From the NCBI GenBank assembly GCA_009692765.1, contig SHYQ01000006.1, forward strand, positions 1-36,141: DNA of 36,141 nucleotides. Direction: 5' to 3'. This DNA comes from Dehalococcoidia bacterium (GTDB taxonomy: Bacteria; Chloroflexota; Dehalococcoidia; UBA2979). Positions 14,239 through 19,636 of this stretch are shown piece after piece; position 1 is the stretch's first letter; each line of letters begins with the position of its first letter. The notes beneath the pieces are model-generated. The model saw nothing but the letters and a program-made list of their open reading frames with translations, did not search any database and had not been told where the DNA came from. The translations under genes were made by a program, and so were the position numbers.

Positions 14239-15165
14239 CTACGCGGGGCGCACGTCGAGCGAGATGTCGAGGGCGGGCGCGGAGTGCGTCAGCGCGCCCA
14301 CCGAGATCAGGTCGACGCCGGTGCCCGCGACCGCGGCGATCGTGTCGATGCGGATGCCCCCCGAGGCCTCGAAGAGCACGTGCCGCGTCGCCGGCCGCGC
14401 GCGCAGCTCCGCGACGATCGCGCGCATCATGTCCGGCGGCATGTTGTCCAGCAGCACCGCGTCCGCGCCGCCCATCGCCGCCGCGCGCGCCATGTGCGGC
14501 GTGTCCGCCTCCACCTCGATGCGCACGAGGTGCGAGACGCGCGCGCGCACCTCCGCGATCAGGTCGGCGGGGGAGACGCCGCGGCGCGCCGCCGCCTCGA
14601 TGTGGTTGTCCTTGATCAGCACGCCGTCCTCCAGCGTGTTGCGGTGGTTGTAGCCGCCGCCGAGGCGCACCGCGTAACGCTCCAGGGCGCGCAGCCCGGG
14701 CGTCGTCTTGCGCGTGTCCACCACGCGCACCTCGCCGCCGCGCGCGGCCTCGTCGGCGTAGCGGCGTGCCATCGTCGCGGTGCCGGACATGCGCTGGAGC
14801 AGGTTCAGCGCGACGCGCTCACCGGACAGCATCGGCGCGAGCGGGCCGCTGATCTCGGCGGCGACGGTGCCCGACTCCACCCAGGCGCCCTCGGCGACGC
14901 GAGCGTCGAGCACGAGGTCGGGCGACATCTGCCGCATCACCTCGCGCACTACCTCGACGCCGCAGACGACGCCGGCCTCCTTGTAGAGCAGCGTCGCCTC
15001 GCCGGGCTGGTCGGGCGGGATCGAGGCCTGCGTGGTGATGTCGTAGGCGACTCGGTCCTCGGCGAGCGCCGCTACGACGATCGCCGCGATCACCTCATGG
15101 GCTGGATGGCCCGCGGGCAGCGCAGGACTCTGGGGACTTCGCTCGGAACCTCGAGGTGTCGTCAT
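14239..15165 (-). CDS. nadC: Nicotinate-nucleotide pyrophosphorylase (carboxylating)
   Basis: Quinolinate phosphoribosyltransferase: quinolinate plus PRPP gives nicotinate mononucleotide, CO2 and PPi. It has 308 residues, with about 20 more than usual at the N-terminus. DRVAYDITT, ERVALNLLQRMSGTATMA, VVDTRKTTPGLRALERYAVRLGGGYNHR and LIKDNHI are all QPRTase hallmarks (the last group binds quinolinate and PRPP phosphates); LFEASGGI and VDLISVGALTHS close the barrel. The start ATG 15165 overlaps the nadB stop as ATGA, giving coupled translation. The kinase gene follows 8 bases later. Confidence 0.96.
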   Translation of the reverse strand: MTTPRGSERSPQSPALPAGHPAHEVIAAIVVAALAEDRVAYDITTQASIPPDQPGEATLLYKEAGVVCGVEVVREVMRQMSPDLVLDARVAEGAWVESGTVAAEISGPLAPMLSGERVALNLLQRMSGTATMARRYADEAARGGEVRVVDTRKTTPGLRALERYAVRLGGGYNHRNTLEDGVLIKDNHIEAAARRGVSPADLIAEVRARVSHLVRIEVEADTPHMARAAAMGGADAVLLDNMPPDMMRAIVAELRARPATRHVLFEASGGIRIDTIAAVAGTGVDLISVGALTHSAPALDISLDVRPA

Positions 15166-16802
15166 GCGGTGACCTCCCGCTGCCGTTCGTCGCGCAGCGT
15201 ATCGCGATTGAGGTCCCGCAGGGCCTCCACGCGGGCCTCCGGCTCGCGGAACACGAGGTGGCGGCGCCACGAGTCTCGCGGCTCGGGGAAGTCCGTGCGG
15301 TAGTGCGCGCCGCGCGACTCCTCGCGCCGCAGCGCGCCCTCGGCGGCGAGGCGCGCGCAGACGAGGATCGAGCGCAGCTCGTACCCCTCGCGGTCGAACG
15401 GCTCGGGCGGCATGCCTGCGTGCCACCGGGCGAGGCGTACCGCGGTGTCGCGCAGCCCGGTGCCGTTGCGGATGATGCCCACCTGCTTCCACATCAGCGC
15501 GCGCACCTCGTCTGTCGAGGGCACGGCGTGGTCGCCGAGGGCGGGGAGCAGCGTGATCGCGCCGGCGATGAGCGCCGGCGGCATCATGCTGTCAGGTGAC
15601 GCGCCTTCGCCCGCCTTGAACAGCCGCTCCACCATGCGCTTCGCGAACACCATCGTCTCGAGCAGCGAGTTGCTGGCGAGGCGGTTCGCGCCGTGGACGC
15701 CCGTGCAGGCGGTCTCGCCGACCGCGAAGAGCCCCGCGACCGTCGTCTCGCCCCACGTGTTCGTGCGCACCCCACCCATCGTGTAGTGCGCCGCGGGCGA
15801 GACAGGGATGCGGTCGCGCGCCATGTCGAGGCCGGCCTCCAGGCAGCGCGCGTAGATCTGCGGGAAGCGCGCGGCGAGCCACGACCCGTCGCGGTCCGTG
15901 ATGTCGAGGAGGACGTGGTCCGCGCCGGTGCGCGCCATCTCGGCATGCTCGGCGCGCGTCACGATGTCGCGCGGAGCCAGCTCGAGGCGCGCGTCGTAGC
16001 GCTCCATGAAGCGCACGCCGTCGGTCGCGTACAGGAGCGCGCCCTCGCCGCGCACGGCCTCGGAGATCAGGAACACCGGCTGCCCCGGCAGCACCAGCGC
16101 CGTCGGGTGGAACTGCGTGAACTCCATGTCCATGACCTCGGCGCCGGCGGCGTAGGCCAGCGCCACGCCGTCGCCGGTGGAGACGTCCGGGTTGGTCGTC
16201 GTGCGGTACATCTGTCCCGCGCCGCCCGTCGCGAGCACGACGTTGCCCGCGCCGAACGACCGGCGTTCGCCCGTCGTGGACGTGAACGCCTCGATGCCGG
16301 CGGCGCGCCCGTCCTCGACGACGATGCTGCTCGCGAGCGTGTGCTCGAGGATCGTCACCTCGCGCTGTGCGAGCGCGGAGAGCGACAGCTCGATCTCGAG
16401 GCCGGTACCGTCACCGCGCGCGTGCACGATGCGCGAGGCGGAGTGCGCGGCCTCGCGCCCCAGCGTGATCTCGCCGTCGACGGTGTCGAAGCGCACGCCG
16501 TAGCGCACGAGGTCGGCGATACGGTCGGCGGCCTCGTAGCAGAGGATGCGCGCCGCCGCCTCGTCGACGAGGCCCGCGCCGGCCTCGATGGTGTCGCGCA
16601 GGTGGTCGGCGGGCGAGTCCTCCGGGCCGAGCGCGGCGGCGATGCCGCCCTGCGCGTAGCGCGTGCTCGCCTCGTCGATCGAGCCCTTCGTGACGACGAG
16701 GACGCTCGCGCCGTGCTCGCGCGCCTGCAGCGCGGCGTAGAGCCCGGCGATGCCCGATCCGATGACGACGAGGTCGTAGCGGCCGTCCCGCGCGGTGGTC
16801 AT
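15162..16802 (-). CDS. nadB: L-aspartate oxidase
   Basis: FAD enzyme that oxidises L-aspartate to iminoaspartate, the first step of de novo NAD synthesis. It has 546 residues, normal length. The dinucleotide fold is LVVIGSGIAGLYAALQA (residues 11-27); STRYAQGGIAAA, HSASRIVHARGDGTG, VLATGGAGQMY and FTQFHPTAL are family motifs; SPAAHYTMGGVRTN and GANRLASNSLLE carry active-site and FAD contacts. The helical domain is at the C-terminus. The start is ATG 16802, 27 bases after nadA. Confidence 0.96.
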   Translation of the reverse strand: MTTARDGRYDLVVIGSGIAGLYAALQAREHGASVLVVTKGSIDEASTRYAQGGIAAALGPEDSPADHLRDTIEAGAGLVDEAAARILCYEAADRIADLVRYGVRFDTVDGEITLGREAAHSASRIVHARGDGTGLEIELSLSALAQREVTILEHTLASSIVVEDGRAAGIEAFTSTTGERRSFGAGNVVLATGGAGQMYRTTTNPDVSTGDGVALAYAAGAEVMDMEFTQFHPTALVLPGQPVFLISEAVRGEGALLYATDGVRFMERYDARLELAPRDIVTRAEHAEMARTGADHVLLDITDRDGSWLAARFPQIYARCLEAGLDMARDRIPVSPAAHYTMGGVRTNTWGETTVAGLFAVGETACTGVHGANRLASNSLLETMVFAKRMVERLFKAGEGASPDSMMPPALIAGAITLLPALGDHAVPSTDEVRALMWKQVGIIRNGTGLRDTAVRLARWHAGMPPEPFDREGYELRSILVCARLAAEGALRREESRGAHYRTDFPEPRDSWRRHLVFREPEARVEALRDLNRDTLRDERQREVTA

Positions 16803-16829: not shown

Positions 16830-18044
16830 CTACTTGAGCGCGAGCATCCGCTCGAGGGCGATCTTCGCGTCGCGCTTGTGCTCAGCGGGCACCTCGATGC
16901 GGTTCACGACGTGGCCCTCGACGAGCGACTCCAGCACCCACGCGAGGTACGCGGGGTGCACGCGGTACATCGTGCTGCACGGGCAGACGACGGGGTCGAG
17001 GCAGAACACCGTCTTGTCCGGGTTCTCCTTCGCGAGCCGCGACACGAGGTTGATCTCCGTGCCGACGCCGATCACGGCGCCGGCCGACGCGTTGGCGACG
17101 TACTTCGCGATGAACGCCGTCGAGCCGTTGGCGTCCGCGGCGTCCACCACCTCGGCGCGGCACTCCGGGTGCACGACGATCTGTACGCCGGGGTGCTGGG
17201 CGCGCGCCTCCGCGATCTGCGTGAGCGAGAAGCGCTGGTGCACGGAGCAGTGGCCCTGCCAGAGGATCACGCGCGCGCCCTCGAGCGCCGCGGGCTGCGC
17301 GCCGCCGAGGTTGCCCGCCGGTACGCGCCAGTTCCACAGCACCATCTCCGCGTCGGGGATGCCCAGTGCGTGGCCGGTGTTGCGGCCGAGGTGCTGGTCC
17401 GGGAAGAAGAACACGCGCTTGCCCTGCGTGAACGCCCACTCGAGCACCTTGCCGGCGTTCGAGGAGGTGCAGACCACGCCGCCGTTCGCGCCGCAGAACG
17501 CCTTCAGCGCGGCCGCCGAGTTCATGTACGTCACGGGGATGATGTCGTTCGTGCCGCCGAACAGCTCGCCGAGCTCCCGCCAGGCCGAGCGCACGTCGCG
17601 CTCGTTCGCCATGTCCGCCATCGAGCAGCCGGCCTCGAGGTTCGGCAGGATCACCTGCTGGTGCGGCCCGGCGAGGATGTCCGCGGCCTCCGCCATGAAG
17701 TGCACGCCGCAGAACACGATGTACGGCGCGTCCTGGTGCGACGCCGCGTACTGCGCGAGCGCGAACGAGTCGCCGCGGTCGTCCGCGAAGCGAATGATGT
17801 CCTCGCGCTGGTAGTGGTGGCCGAGGATCACGACTCGCTCGCCGAGGGTCGCGCGGGCGGCGTGGATGCGGCGCGTGAGTTCCTCGACGGCCATCGCCTG
17901 GTAGTGCGCGGGGATGGTCGGCTGCCACGAGGAGAACGCGCGCTCCTCGACGAGCGGGATCGTCTCGATGCCCGCGTCGGTCTCGCACTGGAGTTGCGCG
18001 ATGGGGAAGTAGGGGTTGGGCTTGAGCGCCGGAGCGGTCGTCAT
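16830..18044 (-). CDS. nadA: Quinolinate synthase
   Basis: Condenses iminoaspartate with DHAP to quinolinate using an oxygen-sensitive [4Fe-4S] cluster. It has 404 residues, the long form with about 55 residues before the core. VILGHHYQREDIIRFADDRGDS is the first repeat's substrate motif; cluster ligand cysteines are probably in IVFCGVHFMAE, GVVCTSSNAGK and LDPVVCPCSTMYR; VHPECRAEVVD and GVGTEINLV complete the three-domain pattern. The start ATG 18044 has a GGAGG-like sequence upstream. It is the first gene of the nad operon; its promoter region carries three GTACGCT boxes. Confidence 0.96.
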   Translation of the reverse strand: MTTAPALKPNPYFPIAQLQCETDAGIETIPLVEERAFSSWQPTIPAHYQAMAVEELTRRIHAARATLGERVVILGHHYQREDIIRFADDRGDSFALAQYAASHQDAPYIVFCGVHFMAEAADILAGPHQQVILPNLEAGCSMADMANERDVRSAWRELGELFGGTNDIIPVTYMNSAAALKAFCGANGGVVCTSSNAGKVLEWAFTQGKRVFFFPDQHLGRNTGHALGIPDAEMVLWNWRVPAGNLGGAQPAALEGARVILWQGHCSVHQRFSLTQIAEARAQHPGVQIVVHPECRAEVVDAADANGSTAFIAKYVANASAGAVIGVGTEINLVSRLAKENPDKTVFCLDPVVCPCSTMYRVHPAYLAWVLESLVEGHVVNRIEVPAEHKRDAKIALERMLALK

Positions 18045-18072
18045 CGGAGGCCCCCGCCGTCCTGCGTCTTCG

Positions 18073-18146
18073 GTACGCTAACCTTTGCGTCCTGAGTACG
18101 CTAAGTCTGATGCGTCGAGAGTACGCTTACTCCTCGAAGGCGTCAA
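18073..18146 (-). promoter_or_regulatory. nad operon promoter with three operator-like boxes
   Basis: On the minus strand TTGACG (18146-18141), a 17-base spacer, and TACTCT (18123-18118) form a -35/-10 pair about 75 bases before nadA. Plus-strand boxes GTACGCTAA (18073), GTACGCTAA (18096) and GTACGCTTA (18121) recur every 23-25 bases, about two helical turns. Each is followed by GCGT after 5-9 bases. The first box is nearly palindromic (ACGCTAA-CC-TTTGCGT). Box 3 overlaps the -10 and the others lie downstream, a layout expected for repression. The candidate regulator is the NrtR encoded at 18659-19354. Confidence 0.65.
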
Positions 18147-18206
18147 TGCGGGAGAGCGCGGTGCCAGCCCGCTCGCTATCCTCTCTTCGCTCCGAAGGGC
18201 GCGCTC

Positions 18207-18488
18207 ATGACATTCCCCTGCCCCGTCTGCAACGAAGAGCTGCTCACCCCGCGCTTCACCGACGACGGCGTGATGATCTGCCCGCTCTGCGGCGAGGAGA
18301 TCGAGGCGCCCGAGGGGTGGGGCCGGCTCGACAACGTTGCGCCGGGGGCGACGGCGCCCAGCGCGAGCGGGCCCGCGGCCCCCTCCGACGTGGTGTCGCA
18401 GCTCGAGCGGGCCGCGGCGCTGCGCGACCGCGGCGCGCTGACGGCTGAGGAGTTCGCGGCGCTGAAGGCGAAGCTGCTCGCGGGCTGA
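18207..18488 (+). CDS. Zinc ribbon plus SHOCT-domain small protein
   Basis: A 93-residue protein. The N-terminal ribbon has CPVCNEELL and ICPLCGEEIEAPEGW, two CxxC knuckles that would bind one zinc. A Pro/Ala linker leads to the C-terminal SHOCT helix pair (LERAAALRDRGALTAEEFAALKAKLLAG), a short oligomerisation module. The start ATG 18207 has GAAGGGCGC upstream. It diverges from nadA, so the box-bearing region serves both genes, and converges on nrtR. It may be controlled by the same boxes; its function is unknown. Confidence 0.7.
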   Translation: MTFPCPVCNEELLTPRFTDDGVMICPLCGEEIEAPEGWGRLDNVAPGATAPSASGPAAPSDVVSQLERAAALRDRGALTAEEFAALKAKLLAG

Positions 18489-18658: not shown

Positions 18659-19354
18659 CTACAGCACCACCGGCTCTTTCGAGGTGAAGCGGTACAGCTG
18701 CGCCGGGCGGTGCGCGCCGTGGCGGCGCGTCTCGCCGGGGACCGCCTCGACGATGCCGGCGGAGAGCATGCGCTTGCGGAAGTTCCGGCGGTCGAGGGGG
18801 CGGCTGAGGATCGCTTCGTAGGTGGCTTGCAGCTCGCGCAGCGTGAACAGCTCCGGCAGCAGGCCGTAGGCGATGTTCGTGTAGTCGAGTTTCGCGCCGA
18901 CGCGCGCGACCGCCTGCTCGATCACGCGGTTGTTCTCGAACGCCAGTTGCGGCAGGTCCGCCACCGCGTGCCACGCCGGCGGCCACTCCTGCTCCTCGCG
19001 CAGGCGCACCGTGGAGGCCTCGACGAGCGCGAAGTAGGCGACGGCCACCGAGGGCTGTGCGTGGTCGAGGCCGGAGCGCGTGAACAGCTGCTCGAGGTAG
19101 ACGTCGGTCGCGCCGGTCTCCTCCACGAGCTTGCGCTGGGCGCGCTGGCCCAGCGACTCGCTGCCGTCCCAGCGCCCGCCGGGGAGCGCCCACTTGCCGC
19201 GCTCGGGCTCCGCGGTGCGGTGGATCAGCAGCACCTGCAGCCGCCCCTCGATGATCGCGAGGATCACGACGATCGTCGCGACGAGGGGCGGGCGCGCTTC
19301 GACGGGCGTGGTGTGCGCCGCAGGCTCCGCGGGCGTCGTCGACGGGCTGGTCAT
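18659..19354 (-). CDS. nrtR: NrtR-type NAD-metabolism repressor (Nudix plus winged helix)
   Basis: A 231-residue transcription regulator. The N-terminal Nudix fold (VATIVVILAIIEGRLQVLLIHR) contains the box region GGRWDGSESLGQRAQRKLVEETG. The C-terminal segment LDYTNIAYGLLPELFTLREL, then RRNFRKRMLSAGIVEA and HRPAQLYRF, is the winged-helix DNA-binding part characteristic of NrtR. Known NrtR proteins repress NAD synthesis genes and release DNA on binding ADP-ribose or related products. In the Nudix box the canonical RE is RK, so hydrolase activity is probably lost and the domain would only sense ligand. The nadABC operon lies about 600 bases downstream on the same strand, with the SHOCT gene between. 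Confidence 0.85.
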   Translation of the reverse strand: MTSPSTTPAEPAAHTTPVEARPPLVATIVVILAIIEGRLQVLLIHRTAEPERGKWALPGGRWDGSESLGQRAQRKLVEETGATDVYLEQLFTRSGLDHAQPSVAVAYFALVEASTVRLREEQEWPPAWHAVADLPQLAFENNRVIEQAVARVGAKLDYTNIAYGLLPELFTLRELQATYEAILSRPLDRRNFRKRMLSAGIVEAVPGETRRHGAHRPAQLYRFTSKEPVVL

Positions 19355-19400
19355 GGGGTGAGCCTACAGGACTCGCGTGTCCGAGGAGTTACACCGCGGT

Positions 19401-19494
19401 GCGTTCCGCACGGGTGTGGGGGCGCAGCCCCCACGACTCTTCTGATTGCCCCCCTCGCCCGCGAAGCGGGAGAGGGGCCGGGGGTGAGGGCTCC
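19401..19494. repeat. Composite palindromic repeat upstream of nrtR (first)
   Basis: GCGTTCCGCACGGGTG, hairpin TGGGGGCGCAGCCCCCA, spacer CGACTCTTCTGATTG, then the variant stem CCCCTCGCCCGCG / CGGGAGAGGGG and GCCGGGGGTGAGGGCTC. AACCTCGATG follows a few bases later. The B-type stem differs from copies with CCCCCTCCC. Confidence 0.8.
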
Positions 19495-19537
19495 CCTCGG
19501 CGTCCGCGCGAACCTCGATGTGATGCGCCGGGGGAGA

Positions 19538-19624
19538 TCCGCCGGGGTGCGGGGGCGTAGCCCCCGCGATCAATGCTTCATCTCCTCCCCCTCCCGCCTG
19601 GCGGGAGGGGGCCGGGGGGTGGGT
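19538..19624. repeat. Composite palindromic repeat upstream of nrtR (second)
   Basis: TCCGCCGGGGTGC, hairpin GGGGGCGTAGCCCCC, spacer GATCAATGCTTCATCTC, stem CCCCCTCCCGC / GCGGGAGGGGG and GGGGGGTGGG. It is in the same orientation as, and directly after, the previous copy; together they fill most of the nrtR-miaB gap. Confidence 0.8.
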
Positions 19625-19636
19625 TCCCGCCGCGCG

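Follow-up and report, generated by a model that had tools for sequence, protein, structure and literature searches.

The window analysed here, a stretch of 36,141 nucleotides from a Dehalococcoidia bacterium, carries three exact copies of the heptamer GTACGCT just upstream of nadA, the first gene of nadABC. What is this array, and which regulator reads it? A preliminary description of the sequence had proposed that the boxes are NrtR operators in the nadABC promoter. Our comparison of related genomes gives strong support to that reading, because the sites are conserved upstream of nadA in 37 of 37 loci, an independent target was found at nadE, and an nrtR gene lies next door. Judging from sequence comparison, we therefore regard it as very probable that the NrtR whose gene lies 0.6 kb upstream uses the three boxes as tandem operators to repress nadABC, and that one further operator acts at nadE.

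The locus and the repeat unit

The genome that contains the window is a 1.26-Mb assembly in 67 contigs, estimated at 75.6% complete. The features on which the argument depends are as follows.

14239-15165, minus strand: nadC, quinolinate phosphoribosyltransferase, start approximate (Pfam QRPTase_C and QRPTase_N)
15162-16802, minus strand: nadB, L-aspartate oxidase (TIGR00551 above cut-off)
16830-18044, minus strand: nadA, quinolinate synthase, first gene of nadABC (Pfam NadA, 4.4e-97; TIGR00550 above cut-off)
18060-18082, minus strand: operator site 3, 23-mer GTTAGCGTACCGAAGACGCAGGA, core 18064-18078, an extra copy, score 13.6
18083-18105, minus strand: operator site 2, 23-mer CTTAGCGTACTCAGGACGCAAAG, core 18087-18101, strong and universally kept, score 30.8
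18108-18130, minus strand: operator site 1, 23-mer GTAAGCGTACTCTCGACGCATCA, core 18112-18126, contains the nadA -10 hexamer, score 14.2
18118-18146, minus strand: putative nadA promoter, -35 TTGACG (18141-18146), 17-bp spacer, -10 TACTCT (18118-18123)
18659-19354, minus strand: nrtR, putative repressor of 231 aa (Pfam NrtR_WHD, 3.6e-25; NUDIX, 2.9e-13; PDB matches)

The gene divergent from nadA (18207-18488, plus strand) encodes a small protein with a SHOCT domain and a start resembling a zinc ribbon, and the array thus sits in an intergenic region that the two genes share.

The boxes occupy 18073-18079, 18096-18102 and 18121-18127, in the places described beforehand, and are spaced 23 and 25 bp apart. 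The preliminary description had taken the next GCGT after each box as its partner, but the gap to that element varies (7, 9 and 12), whereas on the plus strand the GCGT preceding each box lies at a constant distance of 5. The unit is therefore GCGT-N7-ACGC, and the GTACGCT box supplies one half of a palindrome. Relatives show a longer, 23-bp form of it that approximates CTTTGYGTAC-NNN-GTACRCAAAG. Taken at this length of 23 bp, the three sites fill 18060-18130, with sites 2 and 3 abutting without a gap and sites 1 and 2 separated by 2 bp.

Short parts of the unit are unremarkable by themselves. For instance, GTACGCT occurs 4 times in the window against 2.25 expected, and GCGT-N7-ACGC 7 times against 3.67 expected in this GC-rich DNA. 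The fuller pattern GCGTN5GTACGCTWA has exactly three matches in the 1.26-Mb genome, and its reversed-pattern control has none. Sites were also scored with a motif matrix trained on other genomes, the window's own genome being left out, and the three highest-scoring positions in the window are the three sites, although site 2 matches far better (30.8) than site 1 (14.2) or site 3 (13.6). In random sequence, a score at least as high as that of the weakest site arises about 4e-5 to 8e-4 times per 100 bp. A chance origin of the full sites is rejected on the genome pattern count with its reversed control, together with these random-sequence rates.

The nadA promoter and its register with the sites

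The -35/-10 pair that the preliminary description assigned to nadA also stands. Read on the minus strand from the promoter towards the gene, the sequence runs TTGACG CCTTCGAGGAGTAAGCG TACTCT CGACGCATCAGACTTAGCGTACTCAGGACGCAAAGGTTAGCGTACCGAAGACGCAGG...ATG, which would place the transcription start near 18111. A generic sigma-70 scan for TATAAT found no promoter upstream of nadA, since the -10 element here is of the form TANNNT and not TATAAT-like. The promoter assignment rests instead on comparison among relatives, nearly all of which keep TTGAC-N17/18-TANNNT at a constant offset from the sites.

This comparison reveals a fixed geometry. In 22 of 22 promoters that carry two or three sites, the distance from the beginning of site 1 to the -10 is exactly 7 bp, which puts the -10 inside the site. 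Counted from the first base of the -10 in the same promoters, site 2 follows at 17 to 19 bp. This register of site 2 is kept in the family's single-site nadA promoters, where a promoter is recognizable, and nadE promoters mostly use it as well (18 bp in 10 of the 19 with a recognizable promoter). At 10.5 bp per turn, spacings of 23 and 25 bp amount to 2.19 and 2.38 turns, about 69 and 137 degrees off, and the earlier view that the boxes lie in phase on one helix face is not supported. The simplest history would start from site 2 as the ancestral copy, with site 1 added over the -10 in some members of the family and site 3 gained in the lineage of the window.

Conservation and regulon content

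Loss of the boxes from orthologous nadA promoters had been named beforehand as a finding that would speak against an NrtR operator. Instead, at least one palindromic site was found in all 37 distinct Dehalococcoidia loci with a nadA at least 62% identical and upstream DNA present, low-identity matches in other phyla having been left out. Fifteen promoters carry one site, 21 carry two, and the window alone carries three. No third site occurs in the 36 other nadA promoters, a comparison to which the nearest relative (G004) contributes no promoter, since its assembly lacks nadA. Because some of the promoters counted here also served to train the motif, the genome-wide scan is the stronger test.

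In that scan, a sequence-only motif model built with nadE left out returns, across the window's own genome, just the three nadA sites and one site on contig 65 (G000:C65:3347-3369, L146); site 2 is its top match. The contig 65 site is single and strong and lies 5' of nadE, a gene identified by a product that exceeds the NCBIfam cut-off set for NAD+ synthase. Its -10-to-site spacing is 18 bp, as for site 2 of nadA. Twenty non-nadA matches were inspected in relatives, each in a different genome, and 19 of the 20 lie upstream of nadE. The sole inspected match elsewhere is a strong site just 5' of a glutamate synthase gene (relative G009, L190:2044-2066). In another relative (G017), a thioesterase-like gene sits between nadA and nadB and is preceded by a further strong site, GTTTGCGTACGCGGTACACAAAG (L045:584-606). 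Upstream of nrtR itself (19355-19636) no motif match was found that would indicate autoregulation, a trait reported for part of the NrtR family and not treated here as essential to it.

The regulator

The gene 0.6 kb from the array does encode an NrtR-family protein, as had been proposed, and its top matches in named genomes are Chloroflexota/Dehalococcoidia assemblies. Both domains of its product are above cut-off: an N-terminal NUDIX domain (residues 29-144) and a C-terminal winged helix, NrtR_WHD (164-223). Nearly every family member has an orthologue, and many of these orthologues adjoin nadA. The Nudix signature (GX5EX7REUXEEXGU) is present as GRWDGSESLGQRAQRKLVEETGA, in which RE is replaced by RK and the other positions are kept; K75 of this signature is nearly invariant among relatives, and the impairment appears mild. 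The NCBIfam model for an ADPR-responsive repressor (NF050029, equivalog) gives 149 bits (E 1.4e-43) against a 400-bit cut-off, which marks the protein as related but unassigned by that model. Consistent with the NrtR family, palindromic operators are found in promoters of NAD genes, nadA in every locus counted and nadE besides.

The best solved relatives are BtAraR of Bacteroides thetaiotaomicron (PDB 5bs6), which is the closest in sequence, and SoNrtR of Shewanella oneidensis (3gz5, 3gz6). In BtAraR, a GTGT half-site is defined by the DNA contacts of K179, R180, N181, K184, K204 and R205 (PMC4666351). These residues align to R189, R190, N191, K194, H215 and R216 here, so that R190, N191, K194 and R216 are identical and R189 and H215 stand for lysines. 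These positions are invariant in 14 relatives, except that K194 is arginine in two. The Dehalococcoidia half-site, GYGT, is close to the GTGT of BtAraR, and this match of contact residues and half-site ties the regulator to the site independently of gene order.

Comparison with known systems

NrtR control of nadABC is already known. In mycobacteria, NrtR binds an N7-spaced palindrome between nrtR and nadABC, and in Mycobacterium smegmatis the 23-bp palindrome by nadABC is GTTTTCGA-N7-TCGAAAAC (PMC6800001). The system described here resembles that of MsNrtR in having a Nudix plus winged-helix repressor adjoining nadABC and an N7-spaced palindrome of about 23 bp. However, the half-site here is GYGT/ACRC, three sites are present instead of one, and MsNrtR regulates itself whereas here nrtR has no site 5' of it and nadE is the second target.

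Tandem sites are likewise known in the family, from AraR. BtAraR covers 25 bp, its tandem sites have a 24-bp period, and two shifted complexes are seen in EMSA (PMC4666351). It shares with the protein studied here the GTGT-type half-site, the tandem sites and most of the DNA-contact residues, but it controls arabinose genes and responds to L-arabinose (PMC4666351), whereas the targets here are NAD genes. SoNrtR has the same two-domain architecture and is ADP-ribose-responsive with solved structures, but it is more distant in sequence (E 9e-25). NrtR of Shewanella and Synechocystis is released by ADP-ribose and NdnR of Corynebacterium by NAD (PMC4666351), and by analogy the protein studied here is predicted to leave DNA in response to one of these two ligands.

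Within the literature surveyed, the new elements are the Dehalococcoidia regulon and its consensus, the site embedded in the -10, and the lone three-site promoter; priority for the Chloroflexi is not claimed. Comparative genomics defines here an NrtR regulon (nadABC and nadE) and an operator consensus in the Dehalococcoidia, a group represented here almost solely by assembled metagenomes. The one-, two- and three-site promoters also form a natural series for asking how operator number tunes the feedback on NAD synthesis.

A proposed mechanism

With the sites, their register to the promoter and the regulator in hand, a mechanism can be proposed in which binding, repression, the identity of the ligand and what the third copy contributes are predictions. 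Each GCGT-N7-ACGC palindrome would be bound by one NrtR dimer. Site 1 would cover the -10, and sites 2 and 3 would cover about +7 to +52 from the predicted transcription start. At low levels of the ligand (by analogy, ADP-ribose or NAD), a row of dimers would cover the promoter and keep RNA polymerase off nadABC, and a single dimer would do likewise from the one site at nadE. When the ligand accumulates, NrtR would let go. The preliminary description had suggested looping repression, but a spacing of 23 to 26 bp leaves essentially no gap between dimers of about 25 bp, so end-to-end tiling fits better. A more elaborate version can be imagined in which the array is graded by copy number, with an ancestral site past the start, a second in the -10 and a third in the lineage of the window, all filled by contiguous dimers, and in which the response of nadABC to NAD is steeper or tighter than that of nadE. 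We consider this version improbable and offer it as speculation.

How many sites work, and how

Cooperative or nucleated binding may sharpen the response of nadABC relative to nadE, an extension of the NrtR reading with the same regulator. This is a credible idea toward which we lean less than halfway. It draws on the fact that sites 23 to 26 bp apart abut, on BtAraR, which covers 25 bp and gives two shifted complexes with tandem sites of 24-bp period (PMC4666351), and on the tandem pairs 23 bp apart upstream of NrtR-family genes in Proteobacteria (L110, L111, L112 and L136). However, inter-site spacing varies from 23 to 26 bp among promoters, a rotation of about 100 degrees, and where spacing is fixed this can be explained by the anchoring of each site to the -10, so that it offers no argument for protein contacts.

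Alternatively, only site 2 may be a working operator. Site 1 would then resemble a site mainly by virtue of the -10, which supplies part of it, site 3 would be a chance or decaying copy, and the triple array would have no special function. Site 2 is kept in every promoter of the family and scores far higher than the others, nadE manages with one site, and site 3 is unique to the window's genome, all of which fit this account. Yet the distal ACRC half-site of site 1, which the -10 does not require, is kept in 22 promoters, and nadE promoters have no site 1 match at the corresponding register (scores of -9 to -41). Chance alone would also yield a score such as that of site 3 less often than about every 1e5 bp. 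We hold this account to be unlikely.

That a regulator other than the window's NrtR binds the boxes is very improbable. The assignment to NrtR rests on family, linkage and residue comparison, which leaves room for another protein, but the palindrome type, the NAD regulon, the gene linkage and the contact residues all favour NrtR, as do related motifs beside NrtR-family genes in other phyla. The weakest proposal, that the repeats act as RNA in a leader hairpin or riboswitch of the nadA 5' UTR, can appeal to the probable transcription of sites 2 and 3 and their ability to pair as RNA, but it is scarcely tenable given that 17900-18350 has no Rfam match up to E 1, NAD riboswitches included, that folding is just slightly better than in shuffles (z -1.76), and that site 1, being over the -10, precedes the predicted transcript.

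Related arrays in other phyla

The tandem pairs at the four Proteobacteria loci named above lie upstream of the NrtR-family genes. In Bacteroidota, a very similar motif occurs in pairs at NrtR-family loci (L131, L132, L133, L140 and L141), with the two copies about 52 to 56 bp apart, and a macro-domain protein and an ADP-ribosylglycohydrolase are among the neighbours at L132 and L140.
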